Shown: positions 2,588-25,319 of the stretch, piece by piece | How the letters are laid out: the number at the start of each line of letters is the position of its first letter | Numbering within the stretch: position 1 is the first letter of the stretch | Virus record (IMG/VR): IMGVR_UViG_3300020472_000090 | Span: 1-33,819 of that record | Origin: a virus | Length of the DNA stretch: 33,819 bases | Strand: one strand, 5' to 3' | The notes under the pieces: generated by a model | The model's input: the letters and a program-made list of their open reading frames with translations, nothing else | Told to the model about the DNA's origin: nothing | The model's database searches: none | Made by a program: the position numbers and the translations under genes

Positions 2588-3256
2588 ATGGATGATATAA
2601 AAAATTTTAATGTTAGGTCAATTAACAAAGATCAAACTAAAGAGTGGTTAAGGTATAAGCATTATGCTAAAAGAATACCACCTATGAGTTATACATTTGG
2701 TTTGTTTAATGATAAAGAATTAATTGGTGTTTGTACTTATGGAACTCCTATATCTAAAGAATTGTGTAATAATGCTTGTGGCGAAAAATATAGAGATTGC
2801 GTCATTGAACTTAATAGGTTGGTTGTAGAAGACAATTTGCCAAAGAATAGTTTATCTTTTTTTGTAAGTCAAACATTTTTTTTATTACCTAAACCTAAAA
2901 TCATTGTAAGTTATGCTGATACAAAACAAAATCATACAGGATATATATATCAAGCTACTAATTGGATCTACACTGGCTTAACACAAAAGAATTATGATTG
3001 GAAATTAAAAGGTACAAATAAACATAGTAGGACACTTAATGGTCAATATAATGCAGAGTATATGAGTAATCACCCTGATAGGTTTGAAAAAGTTGCTAGA
3101 TCTCAAAAGCATAGATATTTTATGATTTTAGCTAGTAAGAAATTGAGGAATAATTTAATCAAAAATTTAGGTTACCCTAAACAACCCTATCCTAAAGGAG
3201 ATAATAAAAGGTATGATTCTAGTTATAAAATAACAAAACAATTAAATATGTTTTAA
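2588..3256 (+). CDS. Mom-like adenine modification protein (GNAT-type fold)
   Basis: The 222-residue protein matches the pattern of the Mom family, acyltransferase-fold enzymes that in phage Mu convert adenine to a carbamoylmethyl-type adenine and so block restriction enzymes. Visible features are K-H-Y-A-K-R-I-P at 24-31, GVCTYG at 47-52, the ELNRL strand at 74-78, and the block S-Y-A-D at 108-111 followed by H116, G118, Y119, Y121, A123, N125. It ends one base into the next gene (TAATG). Unlike Mu, no com-like gene is adjacent. Family recognition is by motif pattern only; a generic GNAT is the main alternative. Confidence 0.65.
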   Translation: MDDIKNFNVRSINKDQTKEWLRYKHYAKRIPPMSYTFGLFNDKELIGVCTYGTPISKELCNNACGEKYRDCVIELNRLVVEDNLPKNSLSFFVSQTFFLLPKPKIIVSYADTKQNHTGYIYQATNWIYTGLTQKNYDWKLKGTNKHSRTLNGQYNAEYMSNHPDRFEKVARSQKHRYFMILASKKLRNNLIKNLGYPKQPYPKGDNKRYDSSYKITKQLNMF

Positions 3257-11524: not shown

Positions 11525-11633
11525 TTAAACGCAATAGGTAGATCCTTAAACGCAGTAGGTGCGTACATAAACGCAATAGGCTGATACATAAACGCAGTAG
11601 GTAGATCTCTAATTATCGTTAAACGCAATAGGT
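11525..11633 (+). repeat. Phased array of five 15-bp direct repeats
   Basis: Five copies of TTAAACGCARTAGGT or one- to two-base variants start at 11525, 11546, 11567, 11588 and 11619. The start-to-start spacing is 21, 21, 21 and 31 bp, i.e. close to two, two, two and three DNA helical turns, so all copies face the same side of the helix. All are on the plus strand. An AT-rich stretch follows from about 11740 to 11890. The array could be an iteron-like origin or multi-site operator. Read in frame after the terminase stop, the 21-bp units give S-L-N-A-I-G-R-type heptads, but a TGA interrupts them. Confidence 0.85.
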
Positions 11634-13363: not shown

Positions 13364-13365
13364 TT

Positions 13366-13533
13366 ATGGATGAGGATACAAAACAAATTTGGATCAAACT
13401 TGTAGCAAATTGGCTATTAGAAACTTCAAGTGTATATTATGAACAAGCACTACAAGATTCTGAAGAACTTTTTGAAACTAATAAAGATGAATTTTTAGAA
13501 ATATTAAAGGGAATAGAAAATGAGATTTGTTAA
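13366..13533 (+). CDS. Small acidic helical protein (55 aa)
   Basis: ATG at 13366, two bases after the previous stop, opens a 55-codon frame. The product is amphipathic and acidic: I-W-I-K-L-V-A-N-W-L-L-E-T followed by D-S-E-E-L-F-E-T-N-K-D-E-F-L-E-I-L-K-G. It overlaps the following frame by 14 bases. No family is recognised. Confidence 0.45.
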   Translation: MDEDTKQIWIKLVANWLLETSSVYYEQALQDSEELFETNKDEFLEILKGIENEIC

Positions 13534-13651
13534 TACTATAAAAAAAATGTTATATACTTATGAAGAAGAACATAAGTATTTTATTGGAACTTCTGATGGA
13601 TCTTTCAAAAAGAGAATAAGCGAGAAAGATAATGATAACTTAACTAAATAA
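13520..13651 (+). CDS. Small basic protein (43 aa)
   Basis: A 43-codon frame from ATG 13520, overlapping the gene before it, encodes a product starting R-F-V-N-T-I-K-K-M-L-Y-T-Y and ending in a charged tail. The next start is five bases after its stop. The evidence is operon packing only. Confidence 0.4.
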   Translation: MRFVNTIKKMLYTYEEEHKYFIGTSDGSFKKRISEKDNDNLTK

Positions 13652-13656
13652 AAACA

Positions 13657-13827
13657 ATGAAAAATATATTTAATAAAACATTTATATCAATAAATATAAT
13701 ACTAGCTTTTATATGTTTGTTTATGGCATTGAAAGATTTATATAATGGAGGTAATTCCTTTGGTCATTTCATTACTTATTATATAGTTTTGATCTTGATA
13801 ACTAAAGTATCAACCTTAATTAGATAA
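13657..13827 (+). CDS. Small two-pass membrane protein (56 aa)
   Basis: The 56 residues form two hydrophobic helices, about 9-25 (F-I-S-I-N-I-I-L-A-F-I-C-L-F-M-A-L) and 38-50 (F-I-T-Y-Y-I-V-L-I-L-I-T-K), joined by a polar loop with G-G-N-S-F-G. It is a credible small inner-membrane protein, such as a superinfection-exclusion or membrane-remodelling peptide, but nothing specific can be claimed. Confidence 0.5.
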   Translation: MKNIFNKTFISINIILAFICLFMALKDLYNGGNSFGHFITYYIVLILITKVSTLIR

Positions 13828-13831
13828 GTAT

Positions 13832-13900
13832 ATGGATTGGCAAATAATATTAAATATGCTAATAGCTATTATAATTATAATTATATATGGAAAAATGTAA
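13832..13900 (+). CDS. Candidate micro membrane peptide (22 aa)
   Basis: A 22-codon frame starting four bases after the preceding stop encodes D-W-Q followed by an almost unbroken run of Ile, Leu, Met and Ala, ending Y-G-K-M. It could be a transmembrane micropeptide; AT-rich sequence can produce such frames by chance. It overlaps the zinc-ribbon frame by 14 bases. Confidence 0.3.
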   Translation: MDWQIILNMLIAIIIIIIYGKM

Positions 13901-13982
13901 GTATTGCAATAGTAAAGAGTTAACTTATAATCAATACATAATGGATAGTTATTGTTCAGATTGTGCTAATTGGCAAGAATAA
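13887..13982 (+). CDS. Miniature zinc-ribbon protein (31 aa)
   Basis: The 31-residue frame has C4-K-Y-C7 and C23-S-D-C26 separated by 15 residues, the pattern of a single four-cysteine zinc ribbon with almost nothing outside it. Short zinc ribbons in phages bind RNA, DNA or protein partners; phage Mu Com is one example of a small zinc-binding regulator. No direct relationship is claimed. It is the last coding frame of the operon, immediately before the structured region ending at 14110. Confidence 0.5.
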   Translation: MEKCKYCNSKELTYNQYIMDSYCSDCANWQE

Positions 13983-14031
13983 ATATAATGGGTTTTCTTT
14001 AAGATATAGTTAACGACATTTAGAAATTAAA

Positions 14032-14062
14032 GAGTAGTGAAATAATTGCACCTTGACTACTC
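14032..14062 (+). other. Stem-loop upstream of the operon terminator
   Basis: GAGTAGT at 14032-14038 pairs perfectly with ACTACTC at 14056-14062 over a 17-base loop. It lies in the untranslated stretch 13983-14070 and is followed nine bases later by the terminator hairpin, so the transcript ends in two tandem stem-loops. Confidence 0.55.
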
Positions 14063-14070
14063 GCCCAACT

Positions 14071-14110
14071 AAAATGAGCATCGGAGATTTTTCCTTTGCT
14101 CATTTTTTTT
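14071..14110 (+). terminator. Strong terminator of the plus-strand small-gene operon
   Basis: AAAATGAGCA at 14071-14080 and TGCTCATTTT at 14097-14106 form a perfect 10-bp stem with a 16-base loop, and the run of T extends to 14110. This is a clear intrinsic terminator ending transcripts from the promoter at 11840-11870. Confidence 0.85.
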
Positions 14111-14117
14111 ATTATCG

Positions 14118-14193
14118 TTAAACGCAATAGGTATGGAGATCTTTGATTTCTTAAACGCAATAGGTAGGAGTGTAATCATTAAACGCAATAGGT
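14118..14193 (+). repeat. Second array: three TTAAACGCAATAGGT copies
   Basis: Perfect consensus copies start at 14118, 14151 and 14179 (spacing 33 and 28 bp), directly after the operon terminator. The first copy shares an exact 22-bp identity (14111-14132) with 11612-11633, and the last shares 23 bp (14173-14195) with 11519-11541, so both flanks of the small-gene module carry long direct repeats. Confidence 0.85.
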
Positions 14194-14238
14194 AGGAGTC
14201 CATTTTTCCCTTATAAATTTTGCCTTTATCATAAAACT

Positions 14239-14302
14239 AAAAAAGAGCATTTTAGATCCTAAGTGTAAAAAAGAGCATTGTTGATCCATAATAAAAGAGC
14301 AT
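14239..14302 (+). repeat. Three short AAAAGAGCAT repeats
   Basis: AAAAGAGCAT occurs three times, with its GAGCAT core at 14245, 14273 and 14297 (spacing 28 and 24 bp). The first two copies share a longer unit that ends in GATCC (14239-14259 and 14267-14287). The region 14111-14302 holds no gene that I can support. The repeats sit just beyond the end of the minus-strand operon terminator. Confidence 0.6.
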
Positions 14303-14338
14303 AAAAAAACCCCCAATAATATTTGATATTAAAGGGGG
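14303..14338 (-). terminator. Terminator of the minus-strand operon
   Basis: On the minus strand CCCCC (plus 14334-14338) pairs with GGGGG (plus 14310-14314), with an inner AATAT/ATATT pairing, followed by seven T residues (plus 14303-14309). It ends transcripts of the five-gene minus-strand operon and lies 22 bases beyond the last stop. Confidence 0.8.
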
Positions 14339-14360
14339 ATTACATTACAAACTAAATAAA

Positions 14361-14555
14361 CTAAATTGTATTTATCTTAATACTTTCACAAATTTGCCAC
14401 TCATAATTTGAATGTGCTTCTAGTCCTTTTGATTCTAGGAACTCGTAAAAATATCCCTTTGATATATATTTTTCTTCTAGTTTTGTAATGTTAAAAATGT
14501 AAGTTGTGCCATATGCACAAATAATAGTAATGTATAAATTCTTTTTATCTTTCAT
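14361..14555 (-). CDS. Hypothetical protein, last gene of minus-strand operon (64 aa)
   Basis: The 64-residue protein begins K-D-K-K-N-L-Y-I-T-I-I-C-A-Y-G-T-T-Y-I-F and has a helical middle (K-L-E-E-K-Y-I-S-K-G-Y-F-Y-E-F-L). No family is recognised. It is two bases downstream of the 34-aa membrane peptide frame and is followed by a strong minus-strand terminator, which supports it as a genuine last gene. Confidence 0.5.
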   Translation of the reverse strand: MKDKKNLYITIICAYGTTYIFNITKLEEKYISKGYFYEFLESKGLEAHSNYEWQICESIKINTI

Positions 14556-14557
14556 AA

Positions 14558-14662
14558 TTATAATACTAAAAAATGATAAAAGAATATAAAGAATAATACT
14601 ATTGCTAATACTTTAGCAATTGACCAACTTAATTTATCTAAGTAATCTATAAATTTATTCAT
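14558..14662 (-). CDS. Small membrane peptide (34 aa)
   Basis: On the minus strand from ATG at 14660-14662, the 34 residues comprise a short amphipathic start (N-K-F-I-D-Y-L-D-K-L-S-W) and a hydrophobic stretch (V-L-A-I-V-L-F-F-I-F-F-Y). It fits exactly between two neighbours of the same operon. A single-pass membrane peptide is likely; function unknown. Confidence 0.4.
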   Translation of the reverse strand: MNKFIDYLDKLSWSIAKVLAIVLFFIFFYHFLVL

Positions 14663-14680
14663 TTTATTTATTTATTTATT

Positions 14681-14830
14681 TTAAACTCCTTCAAATTTGT
14701 CTAAACCTTTAGAAAGTTTAGATTCTAGCTTTGATATTGGAGTTTCTGATTTTACATTTTGCTTTAAGTATGAAGAATATAGTATATTTAATTCTTCATA
14801 AGTTAAATCTATTTTAATTGTTTTATTCAT
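14681..14830 (-). CDS. Small helical protein (49 aa)
   Basis: ATG at 14828-14830 overlaps the stop of the preceding minus-strand gene by eight bases. The 49 residues begin N-K-T-I-K-I-D-L-T-Y-E-E-L-N-I-L and end with two S-K-L-type repeats (I-S-K-L-E-S-K-L-S-K-G-L-D-K). The beginning resembles small ribbon-helix-helix-like openings but no family can be assigned. Confidence 0.45.
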   Translation of the reverse strand: MNKTIKIDLTYEELNILYSSYLKQNVKSETPISKLESKLSKGLDKFEGV

Positions 14831-15101
14831 TATCAATTAATTTTAAGTTAAGATACTTGGCAACATAATTAATATGTTTGCTAGTAGTTGACGACCAATA
14901 ACCTAAAGTTATTAATTTGTCGCCTTTAATTTCCCCTACTTTTGTTGAGTAGGAAAATACAAACCCCTTTAAATAATTTCCGTGATTTCTTCTAGTGCTA
15001 TTTGTGAGCACTATTGTAAGGTTCTCTTTATATCTTGGTTGCTTAATCAACTCAATATCTTCCGATTTAATTAAATTTGTATCCATTATTTTGAATCCCA
15101 T
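14823..15101 (-). CDS. Hypothetical protein (92 aa), minus-strand operon
   Basis: The 92-residue protein seems beta-rich, with L-T-I-V-L-T-N, F-V-F-S-Y-S-T-K and L-I-T-L-G-Y-W-S-S-T-T-S-K-H. No family is recognised. It overlaps the upstream gene by 16 bases and the downstream 49-aa gene by eight. M6 is an alternative start that would remove the overlap with the upstream gene. Confidence 0.5.
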   Translation of the reverse strand: MGFKIMDTNLIKSEDIELIKQPRYKENLTIVLTNSTRRNHGNYLKGFVFSYSTKVGEIKGDKLITLGYWSSTTSKHINYVAKYLNLKLIDNE

Positions 15102-15409
15102 TTAAAAAAGTTATTTAAATCCCTATAAGTAGCTTTATCATTAAGCAATAATTTAATAGCTTTAGGATCTAAATAATCAGAAGTTTTTATATTTAAATAG
15201 TCCCCTACTTTTGCACTATCAAACGAAGATAATATCTTTATATCTTCGCTAAAATTAGAATCTGAGTTATGAAAATACTCGCTAAAATTTTCGGAGTGCA
15301 TTAAGTTGGTTACTACTTTATTTGCATTTGCCCAACTATCAGAAGTGATAGTAAAATTATGTTTTATTTTATAATCATATTGGGCTAAATAAATTTGATT
15401 TTTACTCAT
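15086..15409 (-). CDS. Hypothetical protein, first gene of the minus-strand operon (107 aa)
   Basis: The 107-residue protein opens S-K-N-Q-I-Y-L-A-Q-Y-D-Y-K-I-K-H and has a helical central part (S-W-A-N-A-N-K-V-V-T-N-L-M-H-S-E-N-F). It has no recognised domain and no obvious DNA-binding helix-turn-helix. A -7-like TATCTTTG box lies about 60 bases upstream on the minus strand, so the gene probably heads its operon. Confidence 0.55.
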   Translation of the reverse strand: MSKNQIYLAQYDYKIKHNFTITSDSWANANKVVTNLMHSENFSEYFHNSDSNFSEDIKILSSFDSAKVGDYLNIKTSDYLDPKAIKLLLNDKATYRDLNNFFKWDSK

Positions 15410-15470
15410 TTTTATTTGAATTAGTTTTACAATAAGTCAATGAACTTAATAAGGTTTATCCCTATCATTA

Positions 15471-15478
15471 CAAAGATA
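15471..15478 (-). promoter_or_regulatory. -7 box of the minus-strand operon promoter
   Basis: On the minus strand TATCTTTG (plus 15471-15478) exactly fits the Bacteroidetes -7 consensus TAnnTTTG. A clear TTTG -33 element at the right distance is not visible. Transcription would start near 15464 and run into the 107-aa gene. Confidence 0.45.
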
Positions 15479-15713
15479 GTGAATTCCTACTTATAAACAC
15501 CTATTGTTGATTAAAATAAAATATAATATTTTCTTATTTAGTTGACAATCAAGATAAGTTTTATTTATATAGTAATAAATGCTTTTAAATTCAAGTCAAT
15601 TTCCTTATTGAGATATTACCCTATTATTTGAGATAATTAGACATTTCAACGCAAAATGGGATTATGTATGGGTAGATTCCCCTCTTTTAAAAATTCAAGC
15701 AAGATCTAGGAAG

Positions 15714-15757
15714 TAAAAAACCCGATGATAGCTAATTAAAGTAAACACATCGGGTTT
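15714..15757 (-). terminator. Minus-strand intrinsic terminator in the control region
   Basis: AAACCCGATG at 15718-15727 and CATCGGGTTT at 15748-15757 form a perfect 10-bp stem with a 20-base loop. On the minus strand the second arm leads into six or more T residues, so this ends a leftward transcript. No protein gene lies upstream of it on that strand, so the terminated transcript would be non-coding. Confidence 0.7.
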
Positions 15758-15820
15758 ATAACCAATTTATAATGAAAAATACATTTTAAATATAATACAA
15801 CTATGGTAAATCTATGTATT
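15714..15820 (-). ncRNA. Candidate small RNA of about 107 nt
   Basis: A leftward promoter candidate (ATTG at plus 15855-15858, 20 bp, TATCTTTA at plus 15827-15834) predicts a start near 15820, and the terminator at 15714-15757 predicts the end. No reading frame of credible length lies between. This is a promoter-plus-terminator prediction only; expression is unknown. Confidence 0.4.
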
Positions 15821-15821
15821 G

Positions 15822-15866
15822 TACTATAAAGATAGTATATTCTATGTAGATATGCAATTCATATCT
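15822..15866. promoter_or_regulatory. Two operator-like dyads overlapping divergent promoter boxes
   Basis: TACTAT-AAAG-ATAGTA at 15822-15837 overlaps the leftward -7 box, and AGATATG-CAATT-CATATCT at 15848-15866 overlaps both the leftward -33 box and the rightward -7 box TATCTTTG (15862-15869). Perfect inverted repeats placed on promoter boxes are typical of operators bound by dimeric repressors. In such AT-rich DNA chance dyads occur, but two perfect ones on promoter boxes are notable. Confidence 0.45.
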
Positions 15867-15940
15867 TTGATATAACTATTTTTTTGAGTTTTGTTTTACA
15901 TTTTCATTGCAACAAATAAAATATTGTTAGTTATATAGAT

Positions 15941-17669: not shown

Positions 17670-20600
17670 ATGTCAATAAACAAAGTTAATACAAGAAGTC
17701 CTTTTTATGTTGTTTCAACAGGAATTGAGGAATCAACAATTGAAAATGCTTCAATAGAAATCTCTGGACCAGCAAAAGGAACTTATGGTACTGATATAAC
17801 ATTATCTATTAACGCAACAAACTTTACACCTCAAAGTTATGCTTGGACTGGTGGTGCGATTGCTGGAAATGCAACTGCAGCTCCTACGTTTACACAAAGT
17901 GGAAGTGGATCTTCTGTTATAACTTATGGTTGTACAGTGACTGATTCAAATGGTACTCAATATACTGCGACTAAAGATGTAACTTGGAACTCAGTAACTC
18001 AATATGAAATTACTTTGCAAGTAACAAATAGTATAGCAGGTCCAAGTGCTGGTTATACTTTTACTGGTTTAACTTTTAATTCAACAACTGGTTATTGGGA
18101 AGCAAAAAAAGTTGGAGCTGTAGGTGCTTCTTATAGTTTTGCTTTTAGTGTAGCTATTAATAGTGGTTATACAGAAGACTCAACTTTAACTTTTTCACCA
18201 GTATCACCGATTGCAGGTACTATTGGAAGTTCTGATGCAACTGTAACATCAACTGTAACTGGTACTGTTTCCCTAACAACAGCTTATTATTTAACAAGAT
18301 CAACTTCTAATGTCTATGAGGGAAATACTTTTGATATTACACTAACGACTGATGGGATAGCAAATGATACAAGTGTGCCTTTTACTATTACAGGGGTACA
18401 AGCTGCTGATTTAGTAAGAGGAACTCTAACTGGAGCTTTTATAATAGAAGATGGTCAAGCAACACAAACATTTGCCGCTGTAGCAGATAATACAAGTGAG
18501 GGAGACGAAACTTTTACTCTTACACTTGATAATATAAGTCCAACAAATTCAATTAGTGTAATTATAAGTGATACTAATACAAACACACCTGTAAGCATCT
18601 TAGTTAGCGCTGATGGATATTCAAACAATAATTTAGCTTGTGAGCAGACTGCAGCAGAAACAGCTTACTATGGATTAGCAACTAGCCAATCTTTAGGTAA
18701 TGGTGTAATTTTATATAAAACTTCTCAATTAGATAATATACCTAATAACACTTACACAAATAGTGGAGATTATTACAAAATAGGAACAAGTCATTATTGT
18801 ACGATTGGTGCTGATAATGATGGTAAAATAGATCAATATAACGAATGTCCTACTTTAACTACAAAACAGAAACTTTCTCAAACGAGTGGAACAAACTCAA
18901 TAATCATCTCGTCTTCTAGTACAAGCACTTTAGGTCCAGATGGTGCAAGTGTTTGTGATTTAGAAGCAGATACTACTGTTTATTATTCAGGGTTTCTTCA
19001 AGATGGTGCTTCTCTTTTTACTAATTCAGATTTGACAGCGCCGTTAGGTGGAAGTGATAATTATTATAGATTATTAATTCCAAATTGTACTAATACACTT
19101 GTGTCTTATTATGCTAGAGTTTTATCTTATCCACCAGGTTACGTAACAAATATAAATCAATGTGGATTTGATCCTAATGAATATGAAGTTCCTACTTGTG
19201 CAGAGAATCTTACTCCTGAAATAGTAATAAGTGATAGCACAATAGATGGAACTGGTACTCAAGTAGCATTTACATCACAAAAATCAACTTTAAGTGTAAG
19301 TGTATCAAATTTATCAGGTACTTTATCTTATCAATGGTATAAAGGTACTTCTTCAAGTGGTGGTACAGCTAGTTTAAGTTCTATAAGTGGAGAAACAAGT
19401 GATAAATTAATTATTAATGATGGTGGGGAAACGCAAACAAGTGTTGCTAATATGTATTACAATGTAAAAGTAAATGGATCATATGAAGCTGACAATAATT
19501 ATCTTATAGCTTGGACTGATAGACCATCCTATGCTTGTACTTATGTTTCAGGTGCTTCAGCTAGTAGTGGTGCTTGTTCAGGTGCAGCTCAAACGATATA
19601 TGGAAATAGAGTAGCTGTAACTGCTTTTTGTGTTCCAGGTGCTATTTTTTATTCTAATCTAGCTGGTAGTAGTTTTGCAGCAGTTGGTTCTTATGCTTTT
19701 AACGATGGATCTAATCATAATTATAGATATGTAACGACAAATGGTGTTGCTCAATTATGTGTTGATGGTGGTTGTGCAGGTACTCCAAGCCAACCGACAT
19801 CTGGTACAATAACTAAATTTACAGGAAAAAGATGTGATGCACCAAGTACATTTCAAAACTTTATAATTAATGATGCACAATATGATAATGAGGGGTATAT
19901 ATTAGACTTAAATGATTTAGGGCAAAATGGTGGTGCTGGTTGTTATGAAATTGTAGAGTTATTTTCTAAAACTGATACTATAACTAATTATATAAGTTTT
20001 GATAAAGCAGATGGATTAGTTAGACTTCAACCATATACAAGTTGTTCTGAATGTCAAGGAGAAGCACCAGCACCTCCACCACCTCCAACACCTGAAATAA
20101 CATATTATTATGCTAGATTTGTTAAAGCTGGTGGAACAACAAACATAACTGCTGTAAGATCAACAGCTCAAATACCAACAGGTATAGTTATAAAAGTTGG
20201 TAATAGTTGTAGAGAATATTTAGATGATATTCAAGTAAGTGGAGCAGCAGATATATCTACTTATGTTCAATATTATAATGTAGCTGGTTGTAATGCTTCA
20301 ATTACACCGACTCCAACACCATCTTTAGCTTATTTTAGAAGATATGGAGATTGTGCAACAAATGGATCTGATATATTAAAAGATTATGGTAGTACAACTG
20401 ATTTAGGTTCTAACTGGCCAGCTACTATTTATGATGGTACTTGTATGAAAGATATGGGTTCATCAGGTAGTAGTTCAACGCAAAACGTATCAAATTTAAT
20501 ACAATATTTTGATTGTACTGAATGTACAAGTGGTCAAACACCTACTCCAACACCGACTCCAACACCGACTACTCCATATAATAAAGCAAAAATAACTAGC

Positions 20601-20825
20601 GATACAAGAGCAACAAGTGTTTTAGCTTGTAGTGAACTTACCTCATATAATACTAAAATATTTTACTCAGGTACACTTGGAGATGGTGTTACATTATATA
20701 CTGATTCAACATTAACGACTAAATACAATCCATCTAGTAATACTTTTGTGAGATCATCTTCTAATTCAACTTTTAGAATTGGTGTTACAAATACTGGTGA
20801 AATTAGCAACTTTAGTGTTTGTTAA
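17670..20825 (+). CDS. Giant tail adhesin with Ig-like, Calx-beta-like and repeated Cys modules
   Basis: The 1051-residue protein is the largest in the window. It begins with Ig/PKD-like beta domains (about 27-110), a second beta domain, and a Calx-beta-like domain (about 205-295; D-N-T-S-E-G-D-E-T-F-T-L). Six Cys-rich modules of about 55-85 residues follow, at about 325, 430, 623, 810, 890 and 984 to the end. They are joined by Pro/Thr linkers: a P-P-P-P-P-T-P run near 800, T-P-T-P-T-P near 880 and a longer T-P repeat near 955-970. It is probably a surface fibre or receptor-binding protein. The neighbouring 2OG oxygenase may act on its prolines. Confidence 0.65.
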   Translation: MSINKVNTRSPFYVVSTGIEESTIENASIEISGPAKGTYGTDITLSINATNFTPQSYAWTGGAIAGNATAAPTFTQSGSGSSVITYGCTVTDSNGTQYTATKDVTWNSVTQYEITLQVTNSIAGPSAGYTFTGLTFNSTTGYWEAKKVGAVGASYSFAFSVAINSGYTEDSTLTFSPVSPIAGTIGSSDATVTSTVTGTVSLTTAYYLTRSTSNVYEGNTFDITLTTDGIANDTSVPFTITGVQAADLVRGTLTGAFIIEDGQATQTFAAVADNTSEGDETFTLTLDNISPTNSISVIISDTNTNTPVSILVSADGYSNNNLACEQTAAETAYYGLATSQSLGNGVILYKTSQLDNIPNNTYTNSGDYYKIGTSHYCTIGADNDGKIDQYNECPTLTTKQKLSQTSGTNSIIISSSSTSTLGPDGASVCDLEADTTVYYSGFLQDGASLFTNSDLTAPLGGSDNYYRLLIPNCTNTLVSYYARVLSYPPGYVTNINQCGFDPNEYEVPTCAENLTPEIVISDSTIDGTGTQVAFTSQKSTLSVSVSNLSGTLSYQWYKGTSSSGGTASLSSISGETSDKLIINDGGETQTSVANMYYNVKVNGSYEADNNYLIAWTDRPSYACTYVSGASASSGACSGAAQTIYGNRVAVTAFCVPGAIFYSNLAGSSFAAVGSYAFNDGSNHNYRYVTTNGVAQLCVDGGCAGTPSQPTSGTITKFTGKRCDAPSTFQNFIINDAQYDNEGYILDLNDLGQNGGAGCYEIVELFSKTDTITNYISFDKADGLVRLQPYTSCSECQGEAPAPPPPPTPEITYYYARFVKAGGTTNITAVRSTAQIPTGIVIKVGNSCREYLDDIQVSGAADISTYVQYYNVAGCNASITPTPTPSLAYFRRYGDCATNGSDILKDYGSTTDLGSNWPATIYDGTCMKDMGSSGSSSTQNVSNLIQYFDCTECTSGQTPTPTPTPTPTTPYNKAKITSDTRATSVLACSELTSYNTKIFYSGTLGDGVTLYTDSTLTTKYNPSSNTFVRSSSNSTFRIGVTNTGEISNFSVC

Positions 20826-20843
20826 AATTGTTATATTTGTAGT

Positions 20844-21422
20844 ATGATATTTGAAAAATATTCTGACATACCTAAATTGACTGAATTAGGATTTAAAGTT
20901 GTTAAGTGTCCAGATCCTACTTGGGAATATATAAGATCTTATTATGATGATAATAAAGTAAATCAAATAAATGAAGAATTTGAGGGTAAAGATCAATATA
21001 TAAAAGGAAGTGGTAGTAGCACTTTAATTACTATTACAGATGAATTTAGAAATAAGGTTCATAATGATTTATATGATTTACATAAAGAATTTTGTAATCA
21101 TAACATAGAAAAAAGTTATGTATATGGAATCAGATCATATAAGAGAGGTGTTGTATTAGAAACTCATAAGGATAGGGTTGAAACTCATCATATAGCTTCT
21201 ATTATATGTGTTGATAAAGATCTGAGGTGTGGATGTTCTAATAAAGAGTTTGGTGATGATTGGGGATTAGACATTGAAGACCATAATGGTAAATGGCACA
21301 AAATATATTTAGAAGTTGGAGAAATGATTATGTATGAATCAGCTGCTTGTCAACACGGTAGACTATCCCCGTTCGAGGGAACTTACTTTAATAATTTATT
21401 TGTTCATTATAAATTAGTGTAA
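20844..21422 (+). CDS. 2-oxoglutarate/Fe(II) dioxygenase, prolyl-4-hydroxylase-like
   Basis: The 192-residue protein has the iron-binding H-x-D at H108-K-D110 and the distal histidine H171 in C-Q-H-G-R, with R173 nearby as the likely 2-oxoglutarate contact. S-Y-K-R-G at 98-102 and L-E-V-G-E-M-I-M-Y at 156-164 fit the prolyl-4-hydroxylase branch of the family. It lies 18 bases after the adhesin gene and before other tail genes, so a virion protein is the plausible substrate. A TATATTTG box at 20832-20839 precedes the gene. Confidence 0.75.
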   Translation: MIFEKYSDIPKLTELGFKVVKCPDPTWEYIRSYYDDNKVNQINEEFEGKDQYIKGSGSSTLITITDEFRNKVHNDLYDLHKEFCNHNIEKSYVYGIRSYKRGVVLETHKDRVETHHIASIICVDKDLRCGCSNKEFGDDWGLDIEDHNGKWHKIYLEVGEMIMYESAACQHGRLSPFEGTYFNNLFVHYKLV

Positions 21423-21462: not shown

Positions 21463-22557
21463 ATGGCAGTATTAGCAACATCAACATTAGATTTATATTG
21501 TTGGACAGGAAAATGGTCTGAGCAACCATCAACAGCTCAATATTCAATAACAAAATCAAACCCTGATTCTAATAATACAATAAGATTTGAGATAGGTGAA
21601 CTTATACAAGATTATGTTGATATTGTATTTGATAATGACTATGGATTATCTTCAAGCCAAATTTCTAATGCTAAAACAACTTGTTGGTGGAGATATGAAA
21701 AGACAAATACACATAGTGATGGATCTCCTGATACATTTGAAGTGGTTTATGGAATCGGAACAAAAGGATATAGTTATTTTGAAGATGGTATAAATTCATC
21801 ATTAACTACATCTAAGATGATTAGTAATGATTATATTTATATTCCAGAGAATGAAACAATAAGAATACCTATTTATATTGGACCTGGTGGTGTTACTAAT
21901 GTTAAATTCTATAATGTAGATTCATCTGGTAACGAAGTAATAGTTGACACTAAGTCTTATTCATTATATAACCAAGCACCTTTAGGTCCTGAGGATTCTA
22001 ATAATTATATTCGCTATGCTAGTAGTGGTGTAACTTCAACAAAAGTTGAGGTAATATCAGCTAACACTTCTCTTTCTACATATTCATCTACAACATCAAG
22101 TGGTACTGAAACATTATATGTAAAGTATTTAGATTGCTCTAAATATAATAACTATAAAGTTTCATTTGTAAATAAACTTGGTGCTATACAAGATTTATGG
22201 TTTAACAAAAAGAGAACAGATAAATTTGAAATAGAAAGAGATAGTTTTTCCACAAGCACAATAACATCTACAACATCAAGTGTATCTTATAATTTATATG
22301 ATCCATCTACTATTGTTCAAGATGTTTCAAGTAAAAAAAGCATAATATTAAACACAAGTTTTGTTAAAGAAGAATATAATGAAGTAATAAGGCAATTATT
22401 ATCATCAGAGGATATTTGGATTGTAGAAGACAATAAAACAATACCTATTTTAGTTAAAGATTCAAATTTTACTTATAGAACCCATCTAAACGACAAACTT
22501 GTTAATTATACGATAGAGTTTGAATATGCGTTTAGTGGAATTAATACTATAAGATAA
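21463..22557 (+). CDS. Tail structural protein (364 aa)
   Basis: The protein is Ser/Thr-rich and beta-rich. It has K-V-S-F-V-N-K-L-G-A-I-Q-D-L-W-F near 231-246, a tail segment F-V-K-E-E-Y-N-E-V-I-R-Q-L-L-S-S-E-D-I-W, and N-D-K-L-V-N-Y-T-I-E-F-E at the end. I recall the same landmarks in Bacteroidetes phage tail proteins that precede a large baseplate-type protein. The stop and next start overlap by a base. A distal tail or baseplate role is inferred from position. Confidence 0.5.
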   Translation: MAVLATSTLDLYCWTGKWSEQPSTAQYSITKSNPDSNNTIRFEIGELIQDYVDIVFDNDYGLSSSQISNAKTTCWWRYEKTNTHSDGSPDTFEVVYGIGTKGYSYFEDGINSSLTTSKMISNDYIYIPENETIRIPIYIGPGGVTNVKFYNVDSSGNEVIVDTKSYSLYNQAPLGPEDSNNYIRYASSGVTSTKVEVISANTSLSTYSSTTSSGTETLYVKYLDCSKYNNYKVSFVNKLGAIQDLWFNKKRTDKFEIERDSFSTSTITSTTSSVSYNLYDPSTIVQDVSSKKSIILNTSFVKEEYNEVIRQLLSSEDIWIVEDNKTIPILVKDSNFTYRTHLNDKLVNYTIEFEYAFSGINTIR

Positions 22558-25319
22558 TGAAACAAGTTGTACAATTATTTATAGATAATGAGCAAGTTGA
22601 TGTATTTGAAAGTGGTTCAATAAACATCCAATCATCAATAAAAGATCTGAGAGATCCTGGTAAAGTGTTTACTGACTTTAGTAGAGATTTTACTTTACCT
22701 GCTTCTAAAAGAAATAATAAAGTATTCAAACATTTTTACAATTATCATATAGACGATGGTTATGATGCTACACAAGCCAAAGAAGCAAGAATAGAAATAA
22801 ACAACAAACCATTTAGACAAGGGTATATTATGCTAGAGGGTGTTGATTTGAAATTTAATAGACCTTATTCATATAGAGTAACTTTTTATGGTAATACTAG
22901 GTTTATAAAAGAGCAATTAGAGAATACAAAATTAAGTGAATTATCATTTTTAGATAATGTAGAAGTGATTTATGAAGCAACAGGGACTAATAGTATAAAA
23001 GATTATCTTACTACTTCTAAAAATGTAACAATAAATAGTGTTAGTCATACACAACCAGTTGTCGTACCACTAATAACCCATACTGAAAGATTATATTACA
23101 ATTCTAGCAAATATGACGCTTCTAGTAATCCTAGTGGATTTTATGGTCAATTTGATGATGGTAATTTATATTATGACGCAGCAGACTACCCTTTAAACAC
23201 TAAAAGAAATGGTGTTAGTTGGGATCAATTAAAACCAGCTGTAAGGATTGACTTTATATTAAAAGCAATAGAGGATTTATTAACAAAAACAACTGGACAA
23301 ACTGTAACCTTTTCAACTGACTTTTTTAATTCATCAAATTTAGATTATTATAATCTTTATATGTGGCTTCATCAAAAAGAGGGTAAAGTAAGACCAAAAG
23401 GATCTGAGGGAGAAATACAAACTATAATAAACACTTTTAGTATAGGAACATATACTTCTACTCTTGATAGTGGTTTCTCTGCATTTACTGCAAAAGCAAT
23501 AAACGCAATAGACAATTCAACTGGTACAGCTGGTAATAAAATACAATTATCTTTTAATAGCGAAAAGGTTGATAGTGTAATAGCAAGATTAAGTTTAGTT
23601 AGTACCTCAAGTACAATTCCTTTTGATTTATTAATATTAAAAGATGGATTTGAGTTTTTTAGTGAAAGACTACCACCACACACAAGTACAAATGATTTTG
23701 TTGAAGTTGACTTAGATCCTGGTACGTATGAGTTTATTGTTATTACCAATAGTTCTGACACAGGTACGATAAATTTTAATAGTGGTTTTAGTTTAGAATT
23801 ATTAGCAAGACTTGATGAGGGAAATTATGGAGAACAATTATCTGCTACTGATGTAACAATAACAGCCACAAATAAAACAACAAATGCAACTCCTAATTTT
23901 TTAATTAGCCAAAACTTACCTGATATTAATATTATAGAATTTCTAACTTCTTTATTTAAGATGTTTAATTTAGTTGCTGAGGTAGAAAACACAAGCAATA
24001 CGAGTAAAACAATAAAAGTAAAAACATTAGATCAATTTTATGCTTCTTCAACTACTTCTTTAGATATTACTAATAGTGTTGATATATCTCAAAGTAAAAT
24101 AGATAAATCACTACCATACACAAGGGTAGTTTTTAAATATGAAGATGTTGGTTCTATGTTAGCAAAACAACATAGTGAAATAGCAAATAATACTTGGGGT
24201 GGGGAACTCTTTGATGTTAATGAAAATAAAGAGGGTGTGTCAAGATCAAGATTTAGTTCTGATTATGAAATAGAACCAGCTTTTGGTCATATGAAATTTG
24301 AAAGATTATTAGATGCAAATAATAGTAATGCAACTACTGAACTTATGGTTGGGTTTAGTGTAACAAAAGGTCAAGAAGATCCAAATGAATTTAATGAGGA
24401 AAAATACAATCCATATATCGGTAAACCAATATTGTTTTATCCTATATTAAAGCCAGTTTCTGGTGAAACTCCCAATACTATACCTTATGTATATAATAAT
24501 AGAGGTGCTAGTACAACAATTTCAACATATTTTGTTCCTAGTAATACTGTGAAATTGGAAACTTCTTCAACTAATCATTTTGGATCAGAAAGAAGTGAAT
24601 GGGATGTAAAAACAAATTTACCAGCTTATGAAGACAACTTATTTTCTAATTATTACAAAAACTATATTAAAAGTGTTTTTAGTTCTAAAAATAGATTATT
24701 AAGTATAAAAGCAAATTTAACAAATGCTTTTATGAGTAATTATTCTTTAGCTGATAAAATTATTTATAGTGGTGAGTCTTATTTTATTAATAAGATAAAT
24801 GCTGATATAACAAATGGTAAGTCTAAAATAGAATTAATCAGATCATACAATGTAATTGACTTTTTATGTTTAGAAACATTATTTGAAGTTAGGGTTGAAG
24901 CGATAACTGGTGGTCATTTATATATATTTAATAATAAATATGGTGTGTATCAATTAGGAAATGCTACTTATACTTTTAGTAATGTTCCAGCAGCTCATCC
25001 AATAGCTTTTCACAACTCTGGTAAAACATCATTAATTACATATAGTGGTACTACTGTTGGTGGTACAAAAACAGGATTAGATGGTAACACATATACATAT
25101 TATAGTGGAGATATTACTGTTGTAGTAAGTGGTGATTTTGGAACTATTAGTTATGAGTGTTATAACCACGGTTATATGGGTGGTCAAAACAACTTAAAGT
25201 ATAATTCAGGTTGTGTAGTAAGTGTAGCACCAACACCAGTAACAGGGACACTAACAGTAGATGCAACAGACATTAGTGTTGATAGTGCATTAATAACAGC
25301 GGATCAAACTGACGAATAA
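22557..25319 (+). CDS. Large tail / baseplate protein (920 aa)
   Basis: The protein opens with L-F-I-D-N-E-Q-V-D-V-F-E and S-S-I-K-D-L-R-D-P-G-K-V-F-T-D-F-S-R-D-F near 27-46, then K-H-F-Y-N-Y-H-I. This N-terminal landmark set recurs, as I recall, in large tail proteins of Bacteroidetes phages. The body is a mix of beta-rich segments, and the last 60 residues are low complexity (T-L-T-V-D-A-T-D-I-S). Its neighbours on both sides are tail proteins, so it is likely a baseplate hub or tail tip component. No enzymatic domain is visible. Confidence 0.55.
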   Translation: MKQVVQLFIDNEQVDVFESGSINIQSSIKDLRDPGKVFTDFSRDFTLPASKRNNKVFKHFYNYHIDDGYDATQAKEARIEINNKPFRQGYIMLEGVDLKFNRPYSYRVTFYGNTRFIKEQLENTKLSELSFLDNVEVIYEATGTNSIKDYLTTSKNVTINSVSHTQPVVVPLITHTERLYYNSSKYDASSNPSGFYGQFDDGNLYYDAADYPLNTKRNGVSWDQLKPAVRIDFILKAIEDLLTKTTGQTVTFSTDFFNSSNLDYYNLYMWLHQKEGKVRPKGSEGEIQTIINTFSIGTYTSTLDSGFSAFTAKAINAIDNSTGTAGNKIQLSFNSEKVDSVIARLSLVSTSSTIPFDLLILKDGFEFFSERLPPHTSTNDFVEVDLDPGTYEFIVITNSSDTGTINFNSGFSLELLARLDEGNYGEQLSATDVTITATNKTTNATPNFLISQNLPDINIIEFLTSLFKMFNLVAEVENTSNTSKTIKVKTLDQFYASSTTSLDITNSVDISQSKIDKSLPYTRVVFKYEDVGSMLAKQHSEIANNTWGGELFDVNENKEGVSRSRFSSDYEIEPAFGHMKFERLLDANNSNATTELMVGFSVTKGQEDPNEFNEEKYNPYIGKPILFYPILKPVSGETPNTIPYVYNNRGASTTISTYFVPSNTVKLETSSTNHFGSERSEWDVKTNLPAYEDNLFSNYYKNYIKSVFSSKNRLLSIKANLTNAFMSNYSLADKIIYSGESYFINKINADITNGKSKIELIRSYNVIDFLCLETLFEVRVEAITGGHLYIFNNKYGVYQLGNATYTFSNVPAAHPIAFHNSGKTSLITYSGTTVGGTKTGLDGNTYTYYSGDITVVVSGDFGTISYECYNHGYMGGQNNLKYNSGCVVSVAPTPVTGTLTVDATDISVDSALITADQTDE

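Follow-up and report, generated by a model that had tools for sequence, protein, structure and literature searches.

A prolyl-hydroxylase-like phage oxygenase linked to X-Pro-repeat adhesins, with putative hydroxyproline-type glycosyltransferases in its relatives

A virus-encoded 2-oxoglutarate (2OG)-Fe(II) enzyme resembling the one described here is known from the chlorella virus PBCV-1, whose prolyl-4-hydroxylase (P4H) is active on proline-containing peptides, although no hydroxyproline could be detected in its virions (PMC7019647). The preliminary description of the present locus had drawn on this parallel, which holds for peptides but is weaker than claimed where the virion is concerned. 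PBCV-1 is also a eukaryotic virus for which the review names no dedicated substrate (PMC7019647), whereas the phage enzyme has a proposed substrate in the neighboring gene, and its relatives add glycosyltransferases. In the Skp1 pathway of Dictyostelium and Toxoplasma, the hydroxylase PhyA acts first and the GlcNAc-transferase Gnt1 then glycosylates the hydroxyproline (PMC3515798), an arrangement with a likeness in the phage relatives. Skp1, however, carries a single regulatory proline and serves oxygen sensing, whereas the phage repeats are long and lie on a structural protein. In plants, the prolyl-hydroxylation motif includes X-Pro with X being Ala, Val, Ser, Thr, or Gly (PMC7960765). Plant extensins and arabinogalactan proteins are O-glycosylated on hydroxyproline by way of P4H and HPAT enzymes; the phage repeats are likewise mostly of the Thr, Ser, Ala, or Val type, and relatives yield HPAT hits above cutoff. 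The plant substrates differ in being cell wall proteins of eukaryotes, the phage HPAT homology is remote, and arabinose is not established as the sugar. For prolyl-hydroxylase-like genes, which are widespread in phages, the use has been called cryptic or guessed to be DNA repair (PMC9301287, PMC2984593). Each part of what we describe resembles a known kind (viral P4H, plant and protist hydroxyproline glycosylation), and neither its combination on phage adhesins nor any phage hydroxyproline system or module of this type was found in the open literature searched, which left out most subscription journals and all preprints.

The window, by which we mean the whole 33.8-kb stretch of DNA analyzed here, is the virus record IMGVR_UViG_3300020472_000090, with a GC content of 29.7%. 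Pfam matches comprised terminase, portal, ERF, RusA, DNA methylase, a Mom-like protein, and M15 peptidases. The portal protein shares 34% identity with its counterpart in the Nonlabens (flavobacterial) phages P12024S and P12024L, and because these are 35.7 kb long, the record is probably near complete; it may be short of up to a few kb. The same likeness suggests that the host is probably a marine flavobacterium. The features of interest are as follows.

17670..20825, plus strand: adhesin or fiber-like protein, 1,051 aa (open reading frame; homologs in relatives)
18606..18848, plus strand: ~80-aa module, copy 1 (iterated HMM, E = 1.7e-11)
18915..19163, plus strand: ~80-aa module, copy 2 (E = 8.2e-14)
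20064..20093, plus strand: Pro-rich linker 1, APAPPPPPTP, aa 799 to 808 (sequence)
20304..20321, plus strand: Pro-rich linker 2, TPTPTP, aa 879 to 884 (sequence)
20538..20576, plus strand: Pro-rich linker 3, TPTPTPTPTPTTP, aa 957 to 969, the proposed main substrate (sequence; shuffle test)
20595..20822, plus strand: ~80-aa module, copy 3, C-terminal (E = 1.2e-20)
20844..21422, plus strand: 2OG-Fe(II) oxygenase, 192 aa, a putative prolyl hydroxylase acting on the linkers of the adhesin (phrog_2954, AlphaFold2, Foldseek, alignment)
21165-21167, 21171-21173, and 21354-21356, plus strand: proposed Fe ligands H108, D110, and H171 of the oxygenase (family alignment)
21463..22557, plus strand: 364-aa tail-region protein, next in the operon (synteny)
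22557..25319, plus strand: 920-aa tail protein (phrog_38559, E = 2.5e-54; alignment)

The order of adhesin gene and oxygenase gene given in the preliminary description was exact to the coordinate, with an 18-nt gap and both genes on the same strand, and H108, D110, and H171 lie where it had put them. It had also described three Pro-rich linkers that included long Thr-Pro repeats; the three linkers are present, but only linker 3 is long. The adhesin itself is Thr and Ser rich and built of small beta-type modules, which the linkers space out in the C-terminal third. One such module, of ~80 aa, was traced by iterated HMM to 171 proteins at 133 loci and occurs three times in the window adhesin. 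As none of 5,000 shuffles of the adhesin sequence contained (TP)4, the Thr-Pro repeat is not a matter of compositional chance. Within the adhesin repeats, Thr and Pro are each written with different synonymous codons, which rules out a plain DNA microsatellite origin; together with the shuffle result, this indicates that the repeats are kept at the protein level.

The AlphaFold2 model of the window oxygenase (mean pLDDT, 94.2) gave 342 PDB matches in Foldseek at E ≤ 0.001 with prolyl hydroxylases on top, the closest folds being Pseudomonas putida prolyl-4-hydroxylase, a Dictyostelium prolyl hydroxylase, and HIF PHD2. By sequence, no Pfam family, including those of the PF13640 P4H type, matched it at E ≤ 0.1, and PDB sequence searches with the protein and its profile returned chance matches only. 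Because Foldseek matches P4Hs and Pfam none, the modeled enzyme is P4H-like in fold yet outside the Pfam P4H families. It does match the profile of phrog_2954 (E = 2.8e-11), for which the PHROG label "ferrochelatase" is ill suited to this protein. Across 44 aligned homologs, H108 and H171 of the HxD...H triad are invariant and D110 is present in at least 90%, with HxE in L060. Gene content, predicted fold, and iron triad are direct observations. Most P4Hs carry a basic residue (Lys or Arg) ~9 to 10 residues past the distal His, which serves the 2OG carboxylate. No such residue was found at that spacing in the alignment of the window oxygenase, which has T180 and Y181 instead; R97, K125, and R173 are invariant in the family alignment and are candidates for the role. 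The gene is under purifying selection (dN, 0.18 to 0.38; dS, 0.8 to saturated).

Scanning viral contigs with the family profile yielded 206 relatives, of which 80 were kept; some contigs are near copies, so that locus counts are not independent. Most relatives are fusions, mostly of 376 to 439 aa, in which a canonical N-terminal P4H precedes a C-terminal domain of the window type. The fused N-terminal ~185 aa match PF13640 (E, 1e-14) and P4Hs in the PDB (E down to 7e-18), and profile-profile comparison gave no alignment between this domain and the window-type domain. Proteins with X-Pro repeats lie at most three genes upstream in 58 of the 61 viral relative loci with enough sequence. The gene directly 5' of the oxygenase has a dense Pro linker at 63 of 74 loci and X-Pro repeats at 60 of 74, compared with 0 of 114 at offsets -4 to -8. 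At some loci (L020, L021, L026, L028, and others) a Pro-poor gene lies directly upstream and the Pro-rich one is mostly two to three genes up. The carrier of the repeats varies: L002 and L003 have them on homologs of the window's 920-aa tail protein, just before the oxygenase, and crAss-like phages have them on short PTPPTP-type proteins. Proline is constant in the repeats of relatives, and X is mostly Thr, Ser, Ala, or Val, with Thr commonest. At L020, a pure (VP)n stretch accompanies an enzyme with only the window-type domain. This variation in X, with L020, favors proline over threonine as the target, as far as sequence comparison can do so; it is not proof.

The association does not extend to all of phrog_2954. 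Distant members in cyanophages and pelagiphages share the same PHROG, and the copies in HTVC033P and Mosig sit in oxygenase clusters near tail fiber genes, but they are only 25 to 33% identical to the window oxygenase and no X-Pro repeats were found near them. Because of these members, the link between oxygenase and repeats is, on the sequences compared, one of the window subfamily and not of the whole family. Relatives with the oxygenase but without Pro-rich adhesins, which would have counted against the original proposal, thus exist at long distance and not in the close family.

The window's phage family was gathered through a neighboring tail gene, regardless of the oxygenase, as a control. 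Repeats of the form (T/S-P)3+ were present at 7 of 7 oxygenase-plus loci versus 1 of 73 oxygenase-minus loci (Fisher, 2.5e-9). Three of the seven were the query or had been added from the oxygenase scan; with only the four that came from the control scan itself, the value is about 4e-6 (hand calculation). Co-occurrence of the gene pair in related phages, the check suggested in the preliminary description, was therefore strongly positive, here as in the 58 of 61 loci above, and both positional linkage and co-variation with the repeats are observed directly. Close relatives without the oxygenase encode a homologous adhesin of ~1,050 to 1,320 aa at the same place, with linkers that are short and often acidic (e.g., NPPPPEEDPTP). 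Loci L095 and L096 show the swap. Their flanks share 87% identity across 1.8 kb on the upstream side and 78% across 0.2 kb on the downstream side, yet a P4H-oxygenase fusion is present at only one of the two, together with Thr-Pro linkers; the other lacks an oxygenase, and its linkers are acidic. On the backbone tree there were about five changes of oxygenase state. Across four independent pairs, the repeats followed the oxygenase in 3.7 on average and never moved against it, with too few independent pairs for the sign test to reach significance. In crAss-like phages, gathered via the muzzle protein, repeats were found at 16 of 16 oxygenase-plus versus 4 of 64 oxygenase-minus loci. At loci L189 and L199, repeats are present together with glycosyltransferases, but no oxygenase was detected.

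Two simpler accounts of this pattern were rejected. The repeats are not a mere trait of the phage clade, as the same clade without the oxygenase has no such repeats, and no oxygenase copy is hidden elsewhere in the whole records of oxygenase-minus relatives. Locus L101, a 14.9-kb fragment, has one short repeat.

In nearly all loci that do not belong to the clade of the window, the gene directly 3' of the oxygenase encodes a glycosyltransferase, typically starting with a 4-nt overlap with the oxygenase stop or 1 nt past it. At L021, L026, and L028, glycosyltransferase genes fall between the oxygenase and the counterpart of the window's 364-aa protein gene. The downstream genes are of several kinds: an HPAT-like glycosyltransferase (PF23452), a Skp1-type GlcNAc transferase (PF11397, E of 1e-35, which we take to be the Gnt1-type family) with a radical-SAM protein, a DXD-type glycosyltransferase (PF04488), and an O-FucT (PF10250) with a carbamoyltransferase. 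Sugar-nucleotide enzymes are also present in relative loci. No glycosyltransferase and no second oxygenase appeared among the window open reading frames in the Pfam scan. Beyond this set, the closest homolog of the oxygenase in cyanophage S-SCSM1 adjoins an O-fucosyltransferase, and Acidimicrobiales metagenome-assembled genomes have the P4H fusion, in some next to a weak O-FucT match.

The HPAT assignment is remote. Scores against PF23452 exceed the curated cutoff of 23.9 bits at L086 (33.3), L075 (31.6), L284 (31.0), L057 (30.7), and L084 (28.8) and fall below it in others (e.g., L003, 20.9 bits); 11 of 23 aligned HPAT-like members match at E ≤ 0.1. The model (pLDDT, 94.2) has a GT-A fold closest to alpha-1,3-Gal/GalNAc transferases, the HPAT-like profile retrieved nothing from among PDB sequences, and no isolated phages with the gene were found. 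The link to the oxygenase is nonetheless reciprocal by direct observation: a scan by HPAT-like sequence gave 65 loci, of which 57 had 1.8 kb or more of upstream sequence; among these 57, an oxygenase was detected by HMM in 55 and a phrog_2954-type oxygenase in all. L284 and L285 carry a divergent phrog_2954 oxygenase downstream of and adjoining the HPAT-like gene; homologous proteins at these loci bear (SPVP)n or (TP)n repeats, and no P4H domain was detected in the locus.

We consider it likely that the oxygenase hydroxylates the linker prolines of the adhesin and that sugars are then added to the hydroxyproline in most relatives, on the understanding that there are no modification data. The enzyme would be made from the tail operon right after the adhesin, bind Fe(II) and 2OG, and hydroxylate prolines in the X-Pro linker repeats ahead of assembly. 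Hydroxyproline could then favor a stalk that is stiff and extended, of the polyproline-II type. For most relatives, the hydroxyproline may also serve as a sugar anchor for glycosyltransferases of the same operon (HPAT-like, Skp1-type GlcNAc, DXD, or O-FucT type), and a glycosylated, extensin-like stalk could withstand proteases or mask the adhesin. Because no glycosyltransferase was found in the window, we propose for this phage either that the prolines are only hydroxylated or that a host enzyme adds the sugars. The idea that a viral prolyl-hydroxylase-like enzyme acts on the adjacent adhesin, with which the preliminary description began, draws support from co-occurrence and the P4H-nearest fold, and the fused P4H domain and hydroxyproline-type glycosyltransferases of most relatives go beyond what that description had noticed; hydroxylation itself, proline as the modified residue, the adhesin as substrate, and all physiological effects are inferred. 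Weighing against this reading are the absent Pfam P4H match and basic residue, the lack of alignment with the fused P4H, the adhesins that close relatives retain with no oxygenase, the distant phrog_2954 members, loci L189 and L199, and the negative result for PBCV-1 virions.

Other readings of the same data must be weighed. The fused N-terminal P4H could be the prolyl hydroxylase, leaving the window-type domain to hydroxylate something else on the same protein, such as Thr, Ser, Val, a residue of the ~80-aa module, or another proline position. Most relatives do carry both domains in one chain, and the two profiles gave no alignment with each other, which makes a division of labor plausible. 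Yet at least 12 viral loci have the window-type domain alone and still have X-Pro repeats, several of them with HPAT-like genes as well, and both the (VP)n stretch of L020 and the pairing of HPAT-like gene and phrog_2954 enzyme without a detected P4H domain at L284 and L285 speak against such a division of labor, which we regard as unlikely.

Still less probable, in our judgment, is that the oxygenase serves in auxiliary metabolism or DNA repair (AlkB-like) and lies in the tail operon merely by chance. Cyanophage genes with P4H domains were earlier linked to repair by their neighbors (PMC2984593), but the unvarying place of the gene beside an X-Pro protein across unrelated phages, its co-variation with repeats, and the glycosyltransferase genes that overlap or abut its stop codon speak against such a role. 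It is also conceivable that Thr or Ser in the repeats carries the sugars directly, with the oxygenase acting on the sugar or on what the glycosyltransferase makes. Thr being the commonest X residue would fit this, as would L189 and L199, where Thr-Pro repeats occur with glycosyltransferases but no oxygenase was detected; against it, the window clade has the oxygenase without a glycosyltransferase, X is often Val or Ala, and hydroxyproline is the acceptor for which the HPAT and Skp1-type families are known. To this last possibility we give the least credence.

Returning to hydroxylation of the linker prolines, we lean slightly toward a broader proposal, in which a mobile cassette for hydroxyproline-linked glycans on adhesin X-Pro stalks is common to marine phages that are not related to each other, namely flavophage-like siphophages, crAss-like phages, and a third lineage. 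This would be an extensin-like glycoprotein system encoded wholly by bacteriophages, where to our knowledge such systems have hitherto been known from plants and protists.

The adjacent gene gives this enzyme a clear and testable substrate, and dozens of phages add glycosyltransferases of the hydroxyproline type. If the proposal is true, it would also provide a functional label for phrog_2954, currently filed as ferrochelatase, and a source of small enzymes for the production of hydroxyproline glycoproteins. In that case, these phages would encode their own route to hydroxyproline and hydroxyproline glycans, which would bear on adsorption, protease resistance, and masking of the adhesin.

The 'ferrochelatase' label that PHROG gives to phrog_2954, the family of the gene at window 20844-21422 and of many cyanophage genes, has spread from there to cyanophage and pelagiphage records. 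Contrary to this label, phrog_2954 members possess a 2OG-Fe(II) oxygenase fold and an HxD...H motif.

Two loci that pair an HPAT-like gene with a divergent phrog_2954 oxygenase (L284 and L285) encode homologous X-Pro-repeat proteins:

L284 4951-5997, X-Pro-repeat protein
L285 1037-2050, homologous X-Pro-repeat protein

One carries (SPVP)n and the other (TP)n, such that proline is constant while X is swapped over the entire repeat length.

Oxygenase homologues (35% identity) were also found within ~440-aa proteins in MAGs of Acidimicrobiales and other Actinomycetota (L249 and L250-L253), with a PF13640 N terminus shown for L249. At L250, the gene that follows matches O-FucT weakly (E 0.017), with a GlcNAc-type glycosyltransferase also in the vicinity. 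It is possible that these loci are a bacterial counterpart of the phage module.

In several crAss-like loci, a radical SAM/SPASM gene is flanked by the P4H-oxygenase fusion and a GlcNAc transferase; its product perhaps adds a further modification to the adhesin that is the proposed substrate of the fusion.

L013 8582-9490, radical SAM/SPASM protein
L014 1274-2176, radical SAM/SPASM protein

Pelagibacter phages HTVC033P (L312) and Mosig (L313) cluster three to five 2OG-Fe(II) oxygenases a short distance downstream of tail-fibre genes. These clusters are without X-Pro repeats and hint at other kinds of fibre modification.

The window also contains repeated short sites and a Mom-family protein:

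11527-11540 and 14120-14194, AAACGCAATAGGTA, four exact copies
14240-14278, AAAAAGAGCAT, two copies 28 nt apart
2588-3256, protein of the Mom family (hit to PF25680 in the scan of window ORFs, E 4.8e-43)

No AAACGCAATAGGTA copies were expected by chance. One lies directly past the terminase gene and three, at 28-33 nt spacing, within the ORF-poor region 13364-15940, in a non-coding stretch shared with AAAAAGAGCAT; the AAACGCAATAGGTA copies are possibly regulatory sites. The PF25680 match likely stems from the 222-aa ORF at 2588-3256, and this Mom-family protein suggests DNA base modification by the phage.
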